Shown: positions 44,635-53,957 of the stretch, piece after piece
Position numbering within the stretch: position 1 is the first letter of the stretch
How the letters are laid out: each line of letters begins with the position of its first letter
Assembly (NCBI GenBank): GCA_943359485.1
Contig: CALRHR010000004.1
Coordinates: 1 to 54,472 of the forward strand
Source of the DNA: Candidatus Nomurabacteria bacterium
Lineage (GTDB): Bacteria; Patescibacteriota; Minisyncoccia; Phycocordibacterales; UBA9973
Reading direction: 5' to 3'
DNA: 54,472 nt
Made by a program: the position numbers and the translations under genes
The notes under the pieces: generated by a model
Databases searched by the model: none
What the model was told of the DNA's origin: nothing
Seen by the model: only the letters and a program-made list of their open reading frames with translations

Positions 44635-44712
44635 AACCTCATCCCCTACCCCTTCTCCTGAAAGGCGAAGGGTTCACCCTCTCCTCTCCAGGAGAGGGCT
44701 GGGGTGAGGTTA
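44635..44712. repeat. G/C-rich double palindrome at the ileS stop codon
   Basis: AACCTCATCCCCTACCCC to GGGCTGGGGTGAGGTT is an inverted-repeat pair like DUF559 element 3 but with no gene inside: a non-autonomous copy. Its right end overlaps the ileS TAA stop. Confidence 0.82.
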
Positions 44713-47700
44713 ATTTACCATAAACCCATGCAGACTGGAAATTATTGGTTTTATAGATTCATTATTTATATCTTCTGGCTTTATTTTGCATTTGGCAAAA
44801 ATTTGTTTTTCGATTCCCTTGCAACAAGCAATCAGTTCTGCTCGTCCATCTTCGGAAAAGATATCCCGTCGGTTTTGATATCGTTTCTTTGCTTCTTCCA
44901 TTCTTTCTTCAAAAGACACGACACCGTGCGGGTCAACACGCCAGTCGGCATAATTCACTATTTTGTAGGCAATATTATTTCCGTTACAATTTTTACATGC
45001 TAAAGAAAAATCAACACTATCGACAATTTTTATTATCTCCTCAGGTAAACCAAGCTCTTTCATTATCAAAATGGTCGTTTTATGTGCATTAAATCCATAC
45101 TTATTTTCATATTCCAACTTTATACTTTCCCAATAATCCAAACCTTCTGGCTTGTTGAATTCCGGAAAGTATCCTAAGTCTGCTTTTATGATATTGCCCA
45201 TGTCGTGAAGCAAACACGCACCAATAATTTCTTCTTTATTTATTGGCTCATTAAAATTATTACAAATCAAAGATGCAACAGCCGCCACGCGGAGCATATG
45301 TTCCTGTAGATTTGGCATAATTTTATATTTTTTATATATCATCAGAACCGTCATCGGCATTTTGTCTTTCGATTTAAGTCCGAGTTTTTTTCTTTTATCC
45401 TGAAGTTCTCGCATAAATTCACGATACTCACCTTCGGCCCTGAGCGCTGGAGTAATCTCTGCATCGAGCAAAATTTCTGATTCTATTTTTTTGTTCTGCG
45501 TTACATCTTTTACATTCAGTTCATCTTTTATTAATTCGATATATTCTTTTCCTAAAACAAGATTTTTTACTTCTAACCTAGTGAGTGGTTGGCGTACTGG
45601 AATATTTACTTTCTGCCTTTCAGCATTTCCAGCCGTACAAATATCACGCACAATTTGCATATCTTTCAAAACCTCCGACCGAAGGTCCCGAGTAGAAACG
45701 AGGGGCCATTTTTCTAAGTGCACGCTCTCCGCATCATCTTTAGTTTTTAATTTCAACCAAATATCTTCTGCCGTAAATGGCGCAAATGGAGCCATTATTT
45801 TCGCTAAAGTTTTCAAGACAAAATACAAAGTTTGTCTGGCCCCGTAGTGAAATTGTTCTTCGGGGTTTACAGCTTCATCTTTGATTCTCTCGCGCGAGCG
45901 ACGCAGATACCATGTAGAAAGATCCCCGACAAAATCCCTAATAGCTCTAGTCGGCTCGAGCAATTTATAGTTATCCAGATTGTCTGTAGAAGTTTTTATT
46001 AATTCATCCAGTCTAGCTAAAATCCAAACATCTAGAATATTACTAGACTCAGTACCCCCTCCGCCTTTGGCACCTCCCCCTATGTAGGGGAAGGCCGGGT
46101 GGGGGTATTCTAAATCTTTATCTCTATAAAGCTCATAAAACGCCAGCACATTGTAGAGCAAACCGAAAACTTGCTGGTACAAAAGCGCTATAGTTTTTTC
46201 ATCAAAATTTTTCGATTCGCCCGGCTGGTTGATCGAGTACATCCACAGACGCAGAGTGTCCACGCCATATTTTTCTATCATCACCCAGGGATCAACAATA
46301 TTGCCAAGCGACTTGGACATTTTTTTACCATTCGCATCAAGTAAGTGCCCAAGGCAAATTACATTTTTGTAAGCTAACCCTTTACCCATTAAAATTCCAA
46401 CAGCGTGAAGTGTATAAAACCACCCGCGAGTTTGATCTATGGCTTCAGCAATAAAGTCAGCCGGATATAAAATTTCCTGAGATTTTTTATTTCCTACTCT
46501 ATACCAAGCTTGTGAAAGTTTGGGGTTAAATGGATAATGGTCTTGCGCGAAAGGCATACATCCAGAATCAAACCATACATCCATAACTTCCTTTGTACGA
46601 GTCAAAATTGAACCATCTTCATCAACCAATTCCAGATCGTCAATAAATGGGCGATGCAAGTCCACTTGACCGAAATAGTTTCTCGGTAGTGACAAAAAAT
46701 TGCATTGTAAGACTTGTGCATTTTGAATAAATGGATATTTATTTTTCAAATTTTCTGATTCTTCTTGTTCATTTAATGCTTCATGAGAAGAGAGGAGTAA
46801 GCGTAAAGGAAGCTCATGCGAAACAACTAAAATATTTTTATCTGAATATGTTTTTTCTAAATCACACATTACGCCAACCATTCTTTTTCTGATATCTTTA
46901 TAACTTTCATCTGAAGATTTTATAGCTCGGGCTTCCCGCAACTCCTCATCGATAAAAATTTCTTCTTTGGGAATTCCAAAAATTTCTGCCACAATTTCTG
47001 CAGTTTGTCTCGTCCTGGTAAAATTAGAAGAAATTATGATATCAGGTTTTCCCTCTAACTTTTTCGCTTGTAATTTGACCTGCTCTACCCCCTCACTAGT
47101 CAAGGCATCATTTTCCTCTCCGGGTTCGAAACTACCTACATTCTTCATATTTCCGACTGAACCCCCATGCCTCATGAGCAAATATTTATTGCCAGATTTT
47201 TTTACTAATTTTTTAATTTCTTCAATACTACCAAGTACCCGAAAAGTATTATTCTGCTGATTGTCATTTTTGACCCATACTGGTAGTGGCGTACCCCAAT
47301 ACCGCTCGCGAGAAATCGCCCAATCTTTGATGTCTTTCAGCCACTCACCAAAGCGTCCGTCACGAGTATATGCTGGTTCCCAATTTATTTTTTGGTTTTC
47401 ATTAATTAATTCTTTTTTTATTTTTGGATCGGACATTTTTATATACCAAGAATCACGCGCGTAATAAATAAGCGCGGTCTTACAACGCCAACAGTGCGGA
47501 TAAGAGTGTTGATAATTTTCTTTGGCGAAAAATAAATTTTTCTCGGTTAAATATTTGATGATATCAACATCGAGTGTGGGTTTGCCCTCTTCATTTTTTT
47601 CTTTCACAAATCTGCCTTCTAAGAATCCTGTGCCTTTTACAAATTTACCTTCAAGATTTACTGTGTGATGCTTCGGCAAGCCCACCTCGGTGCCCAACAC

Positions 47701-48726
47701 AAAGTCATCCTGCCCGTACATCACGGCTGTGTGCACTATGCCTGTGCCGTCTGTGGTTGTCACAAAGTTTGCTCCGTAAACCTTGTAAGCTTTTTCTAAT
47801 TTTGGTTTTTCACTCTCTGTTATAGTCTCTGCAAGAAATGGAAACAAGGGTTCGTATTGCATCCCGACCATTTCCTTACCCTTGTGTTCGGCTACAATTT
47901 CGTACGGGTCGGTAATAACAGACAAGCGCTCTTTGGCAAGAATCAAAATTTCATCTTTAACTTTTACTTCCACATAATCAATATCTTCCCCGACAGCCAA
48001 CGCCACATTCCCTGGCAAAGTCCATGGTGTGGTTGTCCAAGCGAGAAAATATGTACTCATATTTTCTCGTCCTGAGCTTATCGAAGGACTTTTCACTTCA
48101 AACTTCACATACACCGACAAATCTTTTACATCTTCGTATCCTTGCGCAAGCTCATGACTAGAGAGCGCCGTACCACACCTAGGACACCAAGGCACAACTT
48201 TATAGTCCTTATATAAAAGTTTTTGTTCATTTACTGTTTTAACAACATTCCAAACAGATTCAATATAGTCATTGCTATATGTAACATACGGATTTTCTAC
48301 ATCCACCCAATGTCCAATTCTTTCTGTAAATTTATGCCAGATATCAACATACTCCCAGACAGATTCTTTGCACTCTTTATTAAATTTTGCAATACCATAT
48401 TCTTCTATGGCTTTCTTGGAATTAAGTCCAAGCTTTTTTTCTACTTGAAGTTCTACGGGTAATCCATGTGTATCCCACCCTCTTTTACGACGAACATGAA
48501 AACCCCGCATCGTTTTATATCTAGGAAGAGCATCTTTAAATGATCCCGGTATCAAGTGGTGAATTCCTGGCCGGCCATTTGCTGTTGGCGGGCCATCATA
48601 AAATACAAACTCTTTCTCCCCCTCTCTTTCACTCAAAGTCTTTGCAAAAATTTTATTCTCGCGCCAAAATTCTAGAATACCCTCCTCGCGCATAGCAGCC
48701 TCACTTTTTTTATTTTCTTCTTGCAT
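44710..48726 (-). CDS. ileS: Isoleucyl-tRNA synthetase fused to histidine-phosphatase and HD domains
   Basis: The 1338-residue protein carries the class I HIGH-type motif as GRPGIHHLIPG (about 50), the editing domain (about 200-420), WGTPLPVW (about 480), and KMSKS as GKKMSKSLG (about 800). Two additions are unusual. Residues about 507-680 form a histidine-phosphatase domain (LLMRHGGSVGN, ISSNFTRTRQTAEIV, NILVVSHELPLRLLL) inserted between VLGSIEEIKKL and DLHRPFIDDL. Residues about 1130-1338 form an HD phosphohydrolase domain (EHMLRVAAVAS, ACLLHDMGN, YADWRVDP). A G/C-rich repeat adds GGGAKGGGGTES near 880. A T-box lies upstream. Confidence 0.92.
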   Translation of the reverse strand: MQEENKKSEAAMREEGILEFWRENKIFAKTLSEREGEKEFVFYDGPPTANGRPGIHHLIPGSFKDALPRYKTMRGFHVRRKRGWDTHGLPVELQVEKKLGLNSKKAIEEYGIAKFNKECKESVWEYVDIWHKFTERIGHWVDVENPYVTYSNDYIESVWNVVKTVNEQKLLYKDYKVVPWCPRCGTALSSHELAQGYEDVKDLSVYVKFEVKSPSISSGRENMSTYFLAWTTTPWTLPGNVALAVGEDIDYVEVKVKDEILILAKERLSVITDPYEIVAEHKGKEMVGMQYEPLFPFLAETITESEKPKLEKAYKVYGANFVTTTDGTGIVHTAVMYGQDDFVLGTEVGLPKHHTVNLEGKFVKGTGFLEGRFVKEKNEEGKPTLDVDIIKYLTEKNLFFAKENYQHSYPHCWRCKTALIYYARDSWYIKMSDPKIKKELINENQKINWEPAYTRDGRFGEWLKDIKDWAISRERYWGTPLPVWVKNDNQQNNTFRVLGSIEEIKKLVKKSGNKYLLMRHGGSVGNMKNVGSFEPGEENDALTSEGVEQVKLQAKKLEGKPDIIISSNFTRTRQTAEIVAEIFGIPKEEIFIDEELREARAIKSSDESYKDIRKRMVGVMCDLEKTYSDKNILVVSHELPLRLLLSSHEALNEQEESENLKNKYPFIQNAQVLQCNFLSLPRNYFGQVDLHRPFIDDLELVDEDGSILTRTKEVMDVWFDSGCMPFAQDHYPFNPKLSQAWYRVGNKKSQEILYPADFIAEAIDQTRGWFYTLHAVGILMGKGLAYKNVICLGHLLDANGKKMSKSLGNIVDPWVMIEKYGVDTLRLWMYSINQPGESKNFDEKTIALLYQQVFGLLYNVLAFYELYRDKDLEYPHPAFPYIGGGAKGGGGTESSNILDVWILARLDELIKTSTDNLDNYKLLEPTRAIRDFVGDLSTWYLRRSRERIKDEAVNPEEQFHYGARQTLYFVLKTLAKIMAPFAPFTAEDIWLKLKTKDDAESVHLEKWPLVSTRDLRSEVLKDMQIVRDICTAGNAERQKVNIPVRQPLTRLEVKNLVLGKEYIELIKDELNVKDVTQNKKIESEILLDAEITPALRAEGEYREFMRELQDKRKKLGLKSKDKMPMTVLMIYKKYKIMPNLQEHMLRVAAVASLICNNFNEPINKEEIIGACLLHDMGNIIKADLGYFPEFNKPEGLDYWESIKLEYENKYGFNAHKTTILIMKELGLPEEIIKIVDSVDFSLACKNCNGNNIAYKIVNYADWRVDPHGVVSFEERMEEAKKRYQNRRDIFSEDGRAELIACCKGIEKQIFAKCKIKPEDINNESIKPIISSLHGFMVN
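46066..46108. repeat. G/C-rich palindrome inserted in frame in ileS
   Basis: CCTTTGGCACCTCCCCCTAT and TAGGGGAAGGCCGGGTGGGG form a hairpin. It encodes YPHPAFPYIGGGAKGGG in the linker before the tRNA-binding region of IleRS. Confidence 0.78.
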
Positions 48727-51093: not shown

Positions 51094-51519
51094 CTATTTA
51101 TGCCCCGTACTTCCCTCCCGCCCATGACCCCGCACAGTTTCAGAAAGCTCTTCTACCTCTACAATATCACAATGCTCAAATTTTTGAATTAACATCTGTG
51201 CTACTTTTTGATCTTTGGCTATTAAAACTTCTTTATCGGAAACATTTAAAAGATTCATTACGATTTCGCCTCGATAACTCGCATCTATGACTCCGCCCAT
51301 GACTTTCAGCCCTAGATTAAAAGAAATGCTCGACTTGTCCCAGATGAGCCCCACATAGCCTTCTGGAATTTCAATCGAAAGCCCGGTATGAACCCTCTCT
51401 TGTTTGCCTGGAGGGAAAATTACATCTTCCACACAATAAAAATCCATCCCCGCATCCCCCGGATGCCCATGTGTCGGCAACTTTGCATCTTTATGAAGTT
51501 TTTTTACTTTTAGGTTCAT
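51094..51519 (-). CDS. dut: Deoxyuridine triphosphatase (dUTPase)
   Basis: With the start at ATG 51519 the protein has 141 residues, normal for trimeric dUTPases. Motifs are HPGDAGMDFYC (1), WDKSSI (2), GVIDASYRGEI (3), DQKVAQMLI (4) and the C-terminal RGHGREGSTG (5). It removes dUTP and supplies dUMP. Its 5' end overlaps the Nudix gene upstream, so they are co-transcribed. Confidence 0.95.
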   Translation of the reverse strand: MNLKVKKLHKDAKLPTHGHPGDAGMDFYCVEDVIFPPGKQERVHTGLSIEIPEGYVGLIWDKSSISFNLGLKVMGGVIDASYRGEIVMNLLNVSDKEVLIAKDQKVAQMLIQKFEHCDIVEVEELSETVRGHGREGSTGHK

Positions 51520-52003
51520 GTTTAAAAAAATATTCCGCACTTTCCTTCAGACTTGGAAGAAATACCCCGGGTGTTTCATCAAAAGCCTTAAAGATTTCGT
51601 CCCAAGAAAACCATTTAATTGATTCTACCTCACTATCCTGTTTAATTAAAGGATAGTCACTATTTATAGTTACAGTAAACCACTGAGCAAAGTAAGCATG
51701 CTTTGTTGTGCGACGAAGCTTTGGCCCCAACACTGGCTTTAAATTTTTAAGACCAATTTCCTCCTCAGCTTCTTTAATAATATTAGATTCGTAAGTCTCT
51801 CCCTCTTCAACTGTTCCTGCGACAGCTGGCCCCCAAAGGCCTGGATTTATACTTTTGTCAAAGCCCCGCTGAGCAAGAAGAACTTCCCTTTTTTCATTCC
51901 ACAACCAAAGTCCAGTAATTCTTGTTATATCAGTAGTATTTCTGTCTTTTCTATCTTTATACCCTATGATTTCATCTTGTTCATTTACAATCGGGATTTT
52001 CAT
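51491..52003 (-). CDS. Nudix hydrolase (IPP isomerase-like)
   Basis: I chose the ATG at 52003 (170 aa): TATAAT lies 6 nt before it. The Nudix box is GTVEEGETYESNIIKEAEEE with IG following, although the usual Arg is Lys. The flanking LLAQRGFDKSINPGLWGPAV resembles the Nudix subfamily of isopentenyl-diphosphate isomerase-like proteins. Substrate unknown. It overlaps dut by 29 nt. Confidence 0.85.
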   Translation of the reverse strand: MKIPIVNEQDEIIGYKDRKDRNTTDITRITGLWLWNEKREVLLAQRGFDKSINPGLWGPAVAGTVEEGETYESNIIKEAEEEIGLKNLKPVLGPKLRRTTKHAYFAQWFTVTINSDYPLIKQDSEVESIKWFSWDEIFKAFDETPGVFLPSLKESAEYFFKHEPKSKKTS

Positions 52004-52050
52004 TTTATTATTATAACCCTTTTCTTTGTAATCCACAAAAACACAAATTT

Positions 52051-52080
52051 AGCATTAGCACGCGACCGCTTGTTAATGCT
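52051..52080. repeat. 30-bp repeat left of the PaaX/Cas2-like gene
   Basis: The repeat runs AGCATTAGCACGCG ... CCGCTTGTTAATGCT. It is an imperfect palindrome identical base for base to 52659-52688. The TATAAT of the gene directly follows it. Confidence 0.9.
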
Positions 52081-52091
52081 ATAATGCATGG

Positions 52092-52655
52092 ATGAGATCC
52101 AAGGGGCCAAGAATGGGAAATCTGAAAAAGAAAATACTCTTACTTCTTACTGCTGGTTTGGCTTTGGGATTAACCAGGTCACCCAAAAAACATTGGTGGA
52201 TTTTAAAACAAATACCGAAAGAATGGAAGAAGATAAATCATCAGGCGCTTGAGAGGGCAATAAATTCTCTATATTCATCACACTTGGTCCAAGAAAAAGA
52301 TAATAAAGACGGTACTACTACCCTAATATTAACTGAAAATGGTAAAAGAAAGGCCCTGCAGTTTAATATTGAAAAGATGGAAATTAGAAAGCCGGCCATG
52401 TGGGACAGAAGATGGAGAATAGTTATGTTCGACATTCCTGAAAAATTAAAAAGGTTGCGTGATTCTTTGCGCATACATTTTCAAGAAGTAGGGTTAATTG
52501 AACTTCAAAAATCAGTCTTCGTGCATCCTTTCCCCTGCAGTGATGAAATCGAATTTATTTTAGAACTTTATAATGCGAGAAAATATGTGCGCTTTATCAC
52601 GGCTGAAGAAGTAGATAACAAACTCCATTTGATGAAAAAATTTAATTTGTGCTAA
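52092..52655 (+). CDS. PaaX-like protein: winged helix plus Cas2-like ferredoxin domain
   Basis: In this 187-residue protein residues 1-95 form a winged-helix region (KKILLLLTAGLALGLTRSPK, EWKKINHQALERAINSLYSS). Residues 105-187 look like a Cas2/PaaX ferredoxin fold (RRWRIVMFDIPEKLKRLRDS, HFQEVGLIELQKSVFVHPFP). Cas2-type proteins can bind or cut nucleic acid; PaaX proteins repress genes. No cas1 or CRISPR array is present. TATAAT lies 6 nt before the ATG. Its placement between identical repeats suggests they are its binding or cutting sites (inference). Confidence 0.8.
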   Translation: MRSKGPRMGNLKKKILLLLTAGLALGLTRSPKKHWWILKQIPKEWKKINHQALERAINSLYSSHLVQEKDNKDGTTTLILTENGKRKALQFNIEKMEIRKPAMWDRRWRIVMFDIPEKLKRLRDSLRIHFQEVGLIELQKSVFVHPFPCSDEIEFILELYNARKYVRFITAEEVDNKLHLMKKFNLC

Positions 52656-52658
52656 TTA

Positions 52659-52688
52659 AGCATTAGCACGCGACCGCTTGTTAATGCT
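52659..52688. repeat. 30-bp repeat right of the PaaX/Cas2-like gene
   Basis: This is an exact copy of 52051-52080, three bases after the gene's stop. The arms AGCATTA and TAATGCT can pair, so it may also be a terminator between convergent genes. Confidence 0.9.
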
Positions 52689-52696
52689 AAGTAGGG

Positions 52697-53290
52697 TTAT
52701 TGATGTTTGATTTTAAAATGTTTAATAATCATTTCCACAGCTTTCTTGGGAGGAAGGTTTGTGTTGTCGATTATGAAATTATTTTTTAATTTTGGTGAAG
52801 TATTGTAATCTTTTCTGGGTAATATCTGTCGCATTACTTCTTTATCTACAAGTTTGTAAAATTTCTTACGGGAAGCCATACCAACTCTTTTCAAGAGTTC
52901 TTTGGAGTTTGCCTTTAGGTGCACTGGGTAGAATTTAGCACCAAGATTGGTGAGCTTTTTCGCTAATGTTTCTACATATTTAGGATCAGAGAGGCCAGTT
53001 CTTGAAATAAAATTGTGATCATAGCAATGGGTAACGACTAAATTTATTTTTGCCTCCACGACATTTTCTAAAAAATAATATCTCAATCTATCTTTCATTC
53101 TATCGCTTAGATAATTACTCCCACCAAAGACTTCTTTAATAAAATCATTTATATGGTGATTGTGTGATAATTTATACCCCAATTTCTCACTTAAAATCTT
53201 AGCAACGGTTAATTTACCTACCGCGATAGGTCCATATATAAAAATAATTACAGACTTTTTATTTTTTGATGATTTTTTTAACTTTTTCAT
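52697..53290 (-). CDS. P-loop kinase-like protein
   Basis: The 197-residue protein has Walker A in IFIYGPIAVGKLTVAK, then HNHHINDFIKEVFGG and VVTHCYDHNFISRTG, resembling shikimate- or nucleoside-kinase-type P-loop proteins. It has a lid-like basic region (RVGMASRKKFYKLVDKEVMR). Substrate unknown. Its ATG lies inside the 3' end of tmk (32-nt overlap), so it is translationally coupled to it. Confidence 0.75.
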   Translation of the reverse strand: MKKLKKSSKNKKSVIIFIYGPIAVGKLTVAKILSEKLGYKLSHNHHINDFIKEVFGGSNYLSDRMKDRLRYYFLENVVEAKINLVVTHCYDHNFISRTGLSDPKYVETLAKKLTNLGAKFYPVHLKANSKELLKRVGMASRKKFYKLVDKEVMRQILPRKDYNTSPKLKNNFIIDNTNLPPKKAVEMIIKHFKIKHQ

Positions 53291-53957
53291 AAATTTTTTC
53301 GTGAATATCTTGTCTGGATAAAATCTCTCCCGAGGGCGCGCAGTCGATTTTAATAAAATTCGGAACTTCTTTCACGAGTTTTAGCGCGCTTTTTCTGGAA
53401 TTTATTAAAAAGTTAACATCATTCTCGTGGACATCTTTTTTCTTTTTCAAATAAGCTCTTTTCATCTTACTCGATTCTCTATGCTTCAATAGCTTCAGAA
53501 CAATCTCGGTCGGTAAATCTAAATATAAAGTAATGTCCGGTTTTGGAATATTAAATACCTCATACTCCATCTGATTGAGCCATTTGATAAAACTATCTCT
53601 TTTTTTTGCATTTTTAATTTTACCGCCCTGATGAATCTGATTGGCTGAAACATAACGGTTAGCGATAACCACATATCCTTTTTGGAGCCAATTTCTCATT
53701 TCTTTATTGGATTCAAAGCGATCTGCCGCATACAGAACCGAAGCAATTTTGGGATGCACATTTAAAAAGTTGTAATACTGCTCCGAGAGACAATGCCCGA
53801 TGAAGGCGCCGAAAAAATTCTTGTAGTATTCCGGAAAATCAACTACTTTAACAACTTTTCCTTCGTTTTTGAGTTTTTTCTCTAAAAGTTTGACTTGTGT
53901 AGCCTTCCCGGACCCATCTGTGCCATCTATTACTATAAGTTTTCCACGCTTTACCAT
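53259..53957 (-). CDS. tmk: Thymidylate kinase
   Basis: The 232-residue protein has the P-loop IDGTDGSGKATQVK, an FPEYYKNFFGAFIGH stretch, the DR motif in YAADRFESNKEM and NRYVSANQIHQGG, typical of TMP kinases. It phosphorylates dTMP to dTDP and works downstream of dUTPase, also in the window. TATATT lies 6 nt before the ATG. Confidence 0.93.
   Translation of the reverse strand: MVKRGKLIVIDGTDGSGKATQVKLLEKKLKNEGKVVKVVDFPEYYKNFFGAFIGHCLSEQYYNFLNVHPKIASVLYAADRFESNKEMRNWLQKGYVVIANRYVSANQIHQGGKIKNAKKRDSFIKWLNQMEYEVFNIPKPDITLYLDLPTEIVLKLLKHRESSKMKRAYLKKKKDVHENDVNFLINSRKSALKLVKEVPNFIKIDCAPSGEILSRQDIHEKIYEKVKKIIKK

Follow-up and report, generated by a model that had tools for sequence, protein, structure and literature searches.

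A gene for a protein with a winged helix and a Cas2-like domain lies between two identical palindromic repeats in the genome of a Candidatus Nomurabacteria bacterium, and the question is what the repeats and the gene do for each other. A preliminary description of this DNA had offered two readings, a self-spreading element and an autoregulatory module that binds its repeats, together with a hint of a link to CRISPR. We analyzed the locus within a stretch of 54,472 nucleotides, called the window here. The repeats are present as had been reported: the 31-nt sequence AGCATTAGCACGCGACCGCTTGTTAATGCTA occurs in identical form and direct orientation at 52051-52081 and 52659-52689, leaving 10 nt between the first copy and the ATG of the gene at 52092-52655 and 3 nt between its stop codon and the second copy. 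Chance is ruled out as the source of exact copies of 31 nt about 600 bp apart. The repeat is an imperfect palindrome or hairpin (-7.3 kcal/mol when folded as DNA; z, -2.6), and in subfamily A, to which the window's copy belongs, the palindrome has a middle of 8 bp and arms of about 11 bp. The features of the locus are as follows.

52050 to 52689, plus strand: the whole unit of palindrome, gene, and palindrome, about 640 bp; among five copies at five addresses identity jumps at 52049 and falls past the 3' palindrome, and blastn alignments end at the palindromes
52050 to 52081, plus strand: 5' imperfect palindrome with the centre CGACCG, overlapping the promoter (match to covariance model R1, 56.2 bits)
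52080 to 52085, plus strand: TATAAT, a -10-like element by its sequence, which lies across the right edge of the 5' palindrome and ends 6 nt short of the ATG
52092 to 52655, plus strand: gene for the winged-helix plus Cas2-like (PaaX_M) protein, 187 aa (profile matches, AF2 model, and Foldseek)
52395 to 52616, plus strand: Cas2-like domain (PaaX_M match with the Pfam profile)
52431 to 52433, plus strand: codon of Asp114 in VMFDIPEK, a residue shared by all 42 sequences of the alignment
52658 to 52689, plus strand: 3' palindrome, with the sequence and orientation of the 5' copy (R1 match, 52.2 bits)
51491 to 52036, minus strand: flanking NUDIX gene, left of the insertion site; it directly adjoins the thymidylate-kinase-like gene in 8 relatives without the unit
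53259 to 53957, minus strand: thymidylate-kinase-like gene, the right side of the interrupted operon, as read from the NUDIX/kinase adjacency in relatives
52697 to 53290: AAA kinase gene, between the unit and the thymidylate-kinase-like gene in the window's genome

Elsewhere in the window (44710-48726, minus strand) lies a gene for an isoleucyl-tRNA synthetase-like protein of 1338 aa, inside which there is a histidine-phosphatase domain, with its best stretch at about residues 516-599, and an HD domain near the C terminus.

The 187-aa protein belongs to the PaaX_M domain family, since the Pfam profile PaaX_M (PF20803) matches residues 102-175 with 1.7e-20 and 73.3 bits against a cut-off of 24. 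It is not a full-length PaaX equivalog, since TIGR02277 is matched only at positions 62-153 of 279, with 24.6 bits against a cut-off of 264.6. Cas2 models match weakly, with TIGR01573 (3.8e-5) just under its cut-off. A sequence search of solved structures gave no useful full-length relative. In the AlphaFold model the mean pLDDT is 77.9, with values of 86-95 across the Cas2-like part, and Foldseek places Escherichia coli PaaX (8a39) first and Cas2 structures next, which makes the regulator PaaX the closest solved full-length relative. The residues invariant in an alignment of 42 sequences are G84, VMFDIPEK, R123, Q139, and S141; a conserved HUH motif or Tyr is absent from this alignment, as is a Y1_Tnp Pfam match from the 187-aa protein. 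The best conserved part of the protein is a putative metal site, Asp114 in VMFDIPEK, which we take to stand at the place of the metal-binding Asp of Cas2. Ten pairs were tried for dN/dS, four of which were saturated at synonymous sites; the remaining six, including the same-genome paralogues L169/L170 and L047/L050, gave 0.03-0.08, which, as judged from codon changes, shows strong purifying selection on the protein.

Family matches were found in 145 of 197 relatives, with a maximum of 14 per genome, and the labels of related named contigs are those of Nomurabacteria and other Parcubacteria. Patescibacteria genomes are small and compact, yet family members are present in 90 of 286 genomes drawn evenly from the phylum. 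Seven matches turned up when viral contigs were scanned with one peptide pattern, and none of them was confirmed. Within the genus, 15 of 80 genomes, the window's included, hold close copies (at least 66% identity). The window's genome (G000) has seven PaaX_M loci. Among the other six, L081 and L083 have a direct flanking repeat of their own and L080 and L082 have inverted end matches; a shared flanking repeat with a score of at least 13 is also seen at L078 and L082.

Flanking palindromes are a trait of the family rather than of this one locus. The sample comprised 149 distinct family open reading frames (ORFs) from Patescibacteria loci, one of which had too little flank for the shared-repeat test. 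The best ungapped repeat shared by the 5' and 3' flanks scored at least 13 in 112 of 148 family genes, compared with 25 of 515 control ORFs from the same loci and 2 of 148 mismatched pairs of ends, and at least 20 in 68 family genes, 8 control ORFs, and none of the mismatched ends. Such a repeat of score 13 is missing in 36 of the 148. A palindrome score of at least 8 at both ends was reached by 67 of 149 family genes but only 3 of 409 control ORFs. With either a palindrome of at least 8 at one end or a shared repeat of at least 13, the count is 137 of 149, under a combined criterion that has no control of its own; ten of the 149 have neither. The gene is thus accompanied by end palindromes in most relatives, and the repeat is not peculiar to this locus, two points on which the preliminary description had made its case depend. 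On the 5' side the palindrome centre has a median distance of 27 nt from the annotated start (n = 89); on the 3' side the median is 35.5 nt past the stop codon (n = 98). Most of the subfamily-A loci displayed have the palindrome and the -10-like element in the same order as in the window, and 28 of 89 family members have a TA[TGA]AAT motif no more than 25 nt 3' of the 5' centre, versus 3 of 89 at a control offset. T runs follow some palindromes (L170). Palindromes also occur in series, beside the gene or without it, with start-to-start distances of about 93-114 bp and one of 269 bp (L054, 4580-4990, which holds the longer distance; L188, 676-1010).

Each subfamily has its own palindrome with a fixed 6-bp centre, and this centre tracks the protein tree. 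When six centre classes were assigned to 114 labelled members, 31 changes were needed on the tree, whereas none of 200 shuffles needed fewer than 63 (mean, 71). Where the flanks of a pair were dissimilar, and hence the places different, the centre was common to 97 of 124 pairs with at least 60% protein identity and to 435 of 3,443 with 20-40% identity. Scoring both ends of 80 elements gave the same centre at both in 67. These comparisons show a separate palindrome centre for each protein subfamily. One centre type, ATGCGGTCGTC, contains CGTC, and GTAG is absent at either edge of the listed subfamily palindromes.

The arms behave differently from the centres. In 30 subfamily-A palindromes, from both ends in 15 genomes, 89.1% of the cells pair, and both-sided changes occur in 41 cells versus 12.6 expected from shuffles. 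The covariation score is 0.267, versus 0.143 ± 0.014 for shuffled data, a value that none of 500 shuffles reached, and slid versions score 0.05-0.15. The alignments thereby show arm sequences that change while their pairing is kept. In the paralogues L169 and L170 of genome G172, with proteins 89% identical, the four palindromes have four different arms and almost the same centre, and the likeness of the two loci is confined to the gene. Because the two share only the gene and all four arms differ, the palindromic ends do not accompany the gene in every case. For subfamily A, where copies at other addresses keep the same arms, we rejected the idea that the repeats of a mobile unit arose by random target duplication.

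The edges of the unit can be read from copies at different addresses. The window's copy and four others (L033, L034, L037, and L017) lie at five addresses with unrelated neighbours, and their likeness begins at 52049 and is confined to the stretch up to the outer edge of the 3' palindrome. In blocks of 15 columns, pairs of copies have a mean identity of 0.07-0.43 beyond the unit and mostly 0.6-0.9 within it, apart from two low-identity blocks at the gene start and stop, where the copies differ in length. Pairwise blastn alignments of the four other copies likewise end at the palindromes, and the same-genome paralogues L047 and L050 are alike from outside one palindrome to outside the other. 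Because copies at five addresses are alike only between the outer palindrome edges, the unit is palindrome-gene-palindrome, and these alignments show its presence at different addresses. In the subfamily-A tree, which is poorly resolved (1 of 16 inner branches starred), the copies at other addresses form no separate clade.

Empty sites in relatives, which the preliminary description had suggested looking for, do exist. In 11 of the 15 genus copies the unit lies beside a NUDIX or dUTPase gene and the thymidylate-kinase-like gene, and in eight loci without the unit the NUDIX and kinase genes are adjacent. The same junction is occupied by a family member of another subfamily in G073 and filled with other DNA in G014 and G015; by eye, the DNA at this junction in L094 (G014:C10) resembles a helix-turn-helix/toxin pair. 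A second junction is the one where dnaE and pth meet tail to tail; 30 of its loci were examined, of 75 genomes with a match. A full subfamily-A unit is present there in G014, a single palindrome in G035, and other family members in G001, G040, and G053, with another next to pth in G043; in 8 of the 30 loci dnaE and pth are only 2-27 nt apart. Three of the members at this junction, L343 (G040), L348 (G053), and L352 (G043), are short, with 124-130 aa. In the G040 member the match to PaaX_M and Cas2 starts at residue 54, and CCATGG-centred palindromes lie on either side of this member. Y1_Tnp (IS200-like or RAYT-like) proteins are found at the junction as well, above the Pfam cut-off in L355 (G038) and just below it in L350 (G051). 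A near-identical pair of filled and empty sites was not found among these loci; the closest pairs are too diverged to place the insertion edges, or any target duplication, at an exact base. Of two solo sites compared between G202 and G203 for precise presence or absence, one is without the palindrome in G202 but has a diverged flank there, and the other is disturbed by an unrelated insertion.

Palindromes without the gene (solos) were searched as well. In the window's genome, where further copies of the repeat had been asked for, the exact 32-mer (with up to 3 mismatches allowed) occurs only at the two flanks, and the covariance model adds one diverged solo (G000:C10:21605). In relatives there are more: the model finds both flanks in 15 of 15 gene-carrying congeners, with 40 further copies in 11 of the 15, compared with 18 solo copies in 8 of the 65 congeners without a subfamily-A gene. 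Extra solos are shown by this count to be commoner in gene-carrying genomes, with a Mann-Whitney p of 1e-7 that is uncorrected for relatedness and comes from a model built on these very flanks. The number of subfamily-A solos per genome is 0-10. For a second palindrome type, 7 of the 10 genomes searched hold copies, some of which are unit flanks, and the reversed pattern has none.

The placement of solos is uneven. Forty sites, from which two miaA copies in fetched stretches were excluded, comprise 21 at convergent and 14 at co-directional junctions and none at divergent ones, with 3 more inside ORFs and another 2 at contig edges; the baseline of 541 junctions in fetched loci is 112 convergent, 318 co-directional, and 111 divergent. 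Within miaA there are seven solos, all in frame (L301-L310; G002, G014, G025, G035, G040, G043, and G057), with native codons replaced and the length unchanged; the codons concerned read GCGATCGC, GCGATAGC, or GCGGCCGC in several other congeners. Because they are in frame without a change of length, plain insertion cannot explain the miaA solos. After the miaA copies are dropped, solos remain in 11 of 15 gene-carrying and 7 of 65 gene-free genomes.

In G002, three pairs of subfamily-A palindromes (L251, L252, and L253) bracket treble-clef zinc-ribbon genes, 36-43 nt upstream and 6-8 nt downstream of the gene. The zinc-ribbon family is present in 73 of 80 congeners, with up to 20 copies per genome in the genus, and the palindrome is absent at 29 of 29 other top zinc-ribbon loci examined. 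Shared-repeat scores of at least 13 were obtained for 14 of 39 zinc-ribbon genes, largely, in our reading, from tandem zinc-ribbon copies. A general cassette system with zinc-ribbon passengers was rejected, the G002 brackets being local while the other 29 loci of so widespread a family have no palindrome.

Taken together, these results support an element that is dispersed, carries a single gene, is bounded by palindromes, and encodes a protein that would recognize its own palindrome. We think it rather probable that the gene, with the palindromes on its two sides, represents one copy of such an element, REPtron-like, with a Cas2-fold protein in the transposase's place. Of the two readings offered at the outset, the self-spreading element has the better support, from one unit at several addresses, same-genome paralogues, empty sites, a site with a single palindrome, and solos. 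In the mechanism we propose, the protein would bind its own palindrome through the winged helix, a Cas2-like dimer seated on the 6-bp centre of a hairpin or cruciform, or both; the Cas2-like domain with its invariant Asp would nick or cut the palindrome DNA; and the product would be copied or inserted elsewhere, preferably at gene tails. Solo palindromes could be left by recombination between the two direct palindromes or by partial copying. We infer cutting and movement by the Cas2-like domain because its gene is the only one in the unit, because the subfamily predicts the palindrome, and because the putative metal site is best conserved. The 5' palindrome covers the promoter, and therefore binding there probably also represses the gene. 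Many transposases limit themselves. The autoregulatory reading is thus compatible with the element, and autorepression through the 5' palindrome is likely in addition to the element role. More tentatively, and with somewhat less than even confidence, we suggest that this may be an undescribed class of minimal mobile element, in which a Cas2-fold protein itself recognizes and cuts the hairpins of its own palindromes and copies the unit and solos to gene tails. In searches of open-access PMC papers, none of the titles and abstracts listed describes the system, and no paper brought PaaX and Cas2 together.

The palindromes could instead be operators of an ordinary PaaX-like autoregulatory repressor, at its own promoter, at a site after the gene, and in a small regulon, shuffled by general recombination. 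The overlap of the 5' palindrome with the -10 region and the start fits this account, as do the closeness of the full-length fold to the repressor PaaX and the three bracketed zinc-ribbon genes of G002, at the distances given above. A regulator, however, needs neither the matched site past its own stop codon that most members have nor long arms that change in sequence with pairing kept; the unit ends abruptly at both palindromes, none of the 35 classifiable solos at gene tails is at a divergent junction (baseline, 111 of 541), and 29 of 29 other zinc-ribbon loci have no palindrome. We regard this account as unlikely. We give even less credence to another enzyme, an IS200-like Y1/RAYT transposase or Xer, moving the palindromes with the Cas2-like gene as passenger or element regulator. 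Y1_Tnp-type proteins do occur at the same dnaE-pth site in G038 and G051, the direct orientation of the hairpins resembles that of IS200/IS605 ends, and the layout, with an 8-bp middle between arms of about 11 bp, is like that of Xer sites. The Cas2-like gene, on the other hand, is the only gene always inside the unit, its presence is tracked by the solos, and its subfamily predicts the palindrome centre, a coupling not expected of a hitchhiker.

The palindromes could also serve gene ends as RNA hairpins or bidirectional terminators of transcription without any part in movement, a role that would account for the strong bias to convergent gene tails and for the T runs after some of them (L170). 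It leaves unexplained the conserved centre that tracks the protein tree, the copy upstream of the gene, and the joint boundaries at five addresses, and we consider it highly improbable. A reduced CRISPR adaptation module, with a Cas2-like protein acting on CRISPR-like repeats, is scarcely credible and was rejected, since no Cas1 was found in G000 by a search that was positive in 9 of 14 named genomes used as a control. The Cas2 fold of the domain and the short palindrome series with spacings of about 93-114 bp in two genomes speak for it. The palindrome in G000 is confined to the two flanks and one solo, and the arms differ between copies, unlike CRISPR repeats. Of the CRISPR hint, then, the Cas2 fold stands and nothing beyond the fold does; the reported absence of cas1 and arrays held, neither being found in G000.

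If the undescribed class of element suggested above is real, it would be a Cas2 counterpart of RAYT and REP, would exemplify DNA mobility in which a Cas2-like domain works with no Cas1, and would have spread through about one-third of the sampled Patescibacteria genomes. If the protein moves its own palindromes, its Cas2-like domain would itself count as a DNA-mobility enzyme, with implications for the origin of Cas2, and a gene of about 560 nt would make a very small candidate tool. The pairing of subfamily and centre makes the recognition code directly testable.

With insertion sequences and transposons in the broad sense the locus shares a defined unit found at different addresses, with empty sites. 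IS200/IS605 elements have a single transposase gene with a hairpin at each end, the two hairpins pointing the same way; they differ from the present unit in that the Cas2-like protein has no Y1/HUH domain. With the PaaX regulators (PaaX_M; E. coli PaaX, 8a39; Rv0674, 3kfw) the protein shares its domain family and fold, whereas it has 187 aa compared with the 305 residues of the 8a39 chain, and the family here is multicopy and palindrome bounded. With CRISPR Cas2 it shares the ferredoxin-like fold and the invariant Asp in the first strand. Most members here, in contrast, have a winged helix, and the CRISPR adaptation pair of cas1 with cas2 and a repeat-spacer array are both absent from G000. 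REPs with a CGTC tag, which passages of PMC3733652 describe as being without a dedicated transposase, are palindromic and extragenic, as are the palindromes here, one centre type of which, ATGCGGTCGTC, contains CGTC; in those REPs CGTC is unpaired at one end, whereas here it is central, and the likeness may be accidental.

The closest comparison is with REPtrons, described as REP palindromes with a gene for a RAYT, a REP-associated tyrosine transposase (passages of PMC3733652 and PMC3116915). RAYTs have HUH and a catalytic Tyr, in place of which there is here a winged helix and a Cas2-like domain; the GTAG tag is lacking, the conserved part being the palindrome centre; and copy numbers are low, with 0-10 solos per genome in subfamily A. 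Because there is no HUH/Tyr and no GTAG, the unit is not a REPtron. The two are nevertheless alike in having a single gene flanked by palindromes and cognate palindromes dispersed in the genome, here with one solo in G000 and additional copies in 11 of the 15 gene-carrying congeners. They also agree in having palindromes mainly at convergent or co-directional gene junctions, the placement given for REPs in the passages of PMC3733652 concerned with it, and in the repeat-specific pairing of gene and palindrome.
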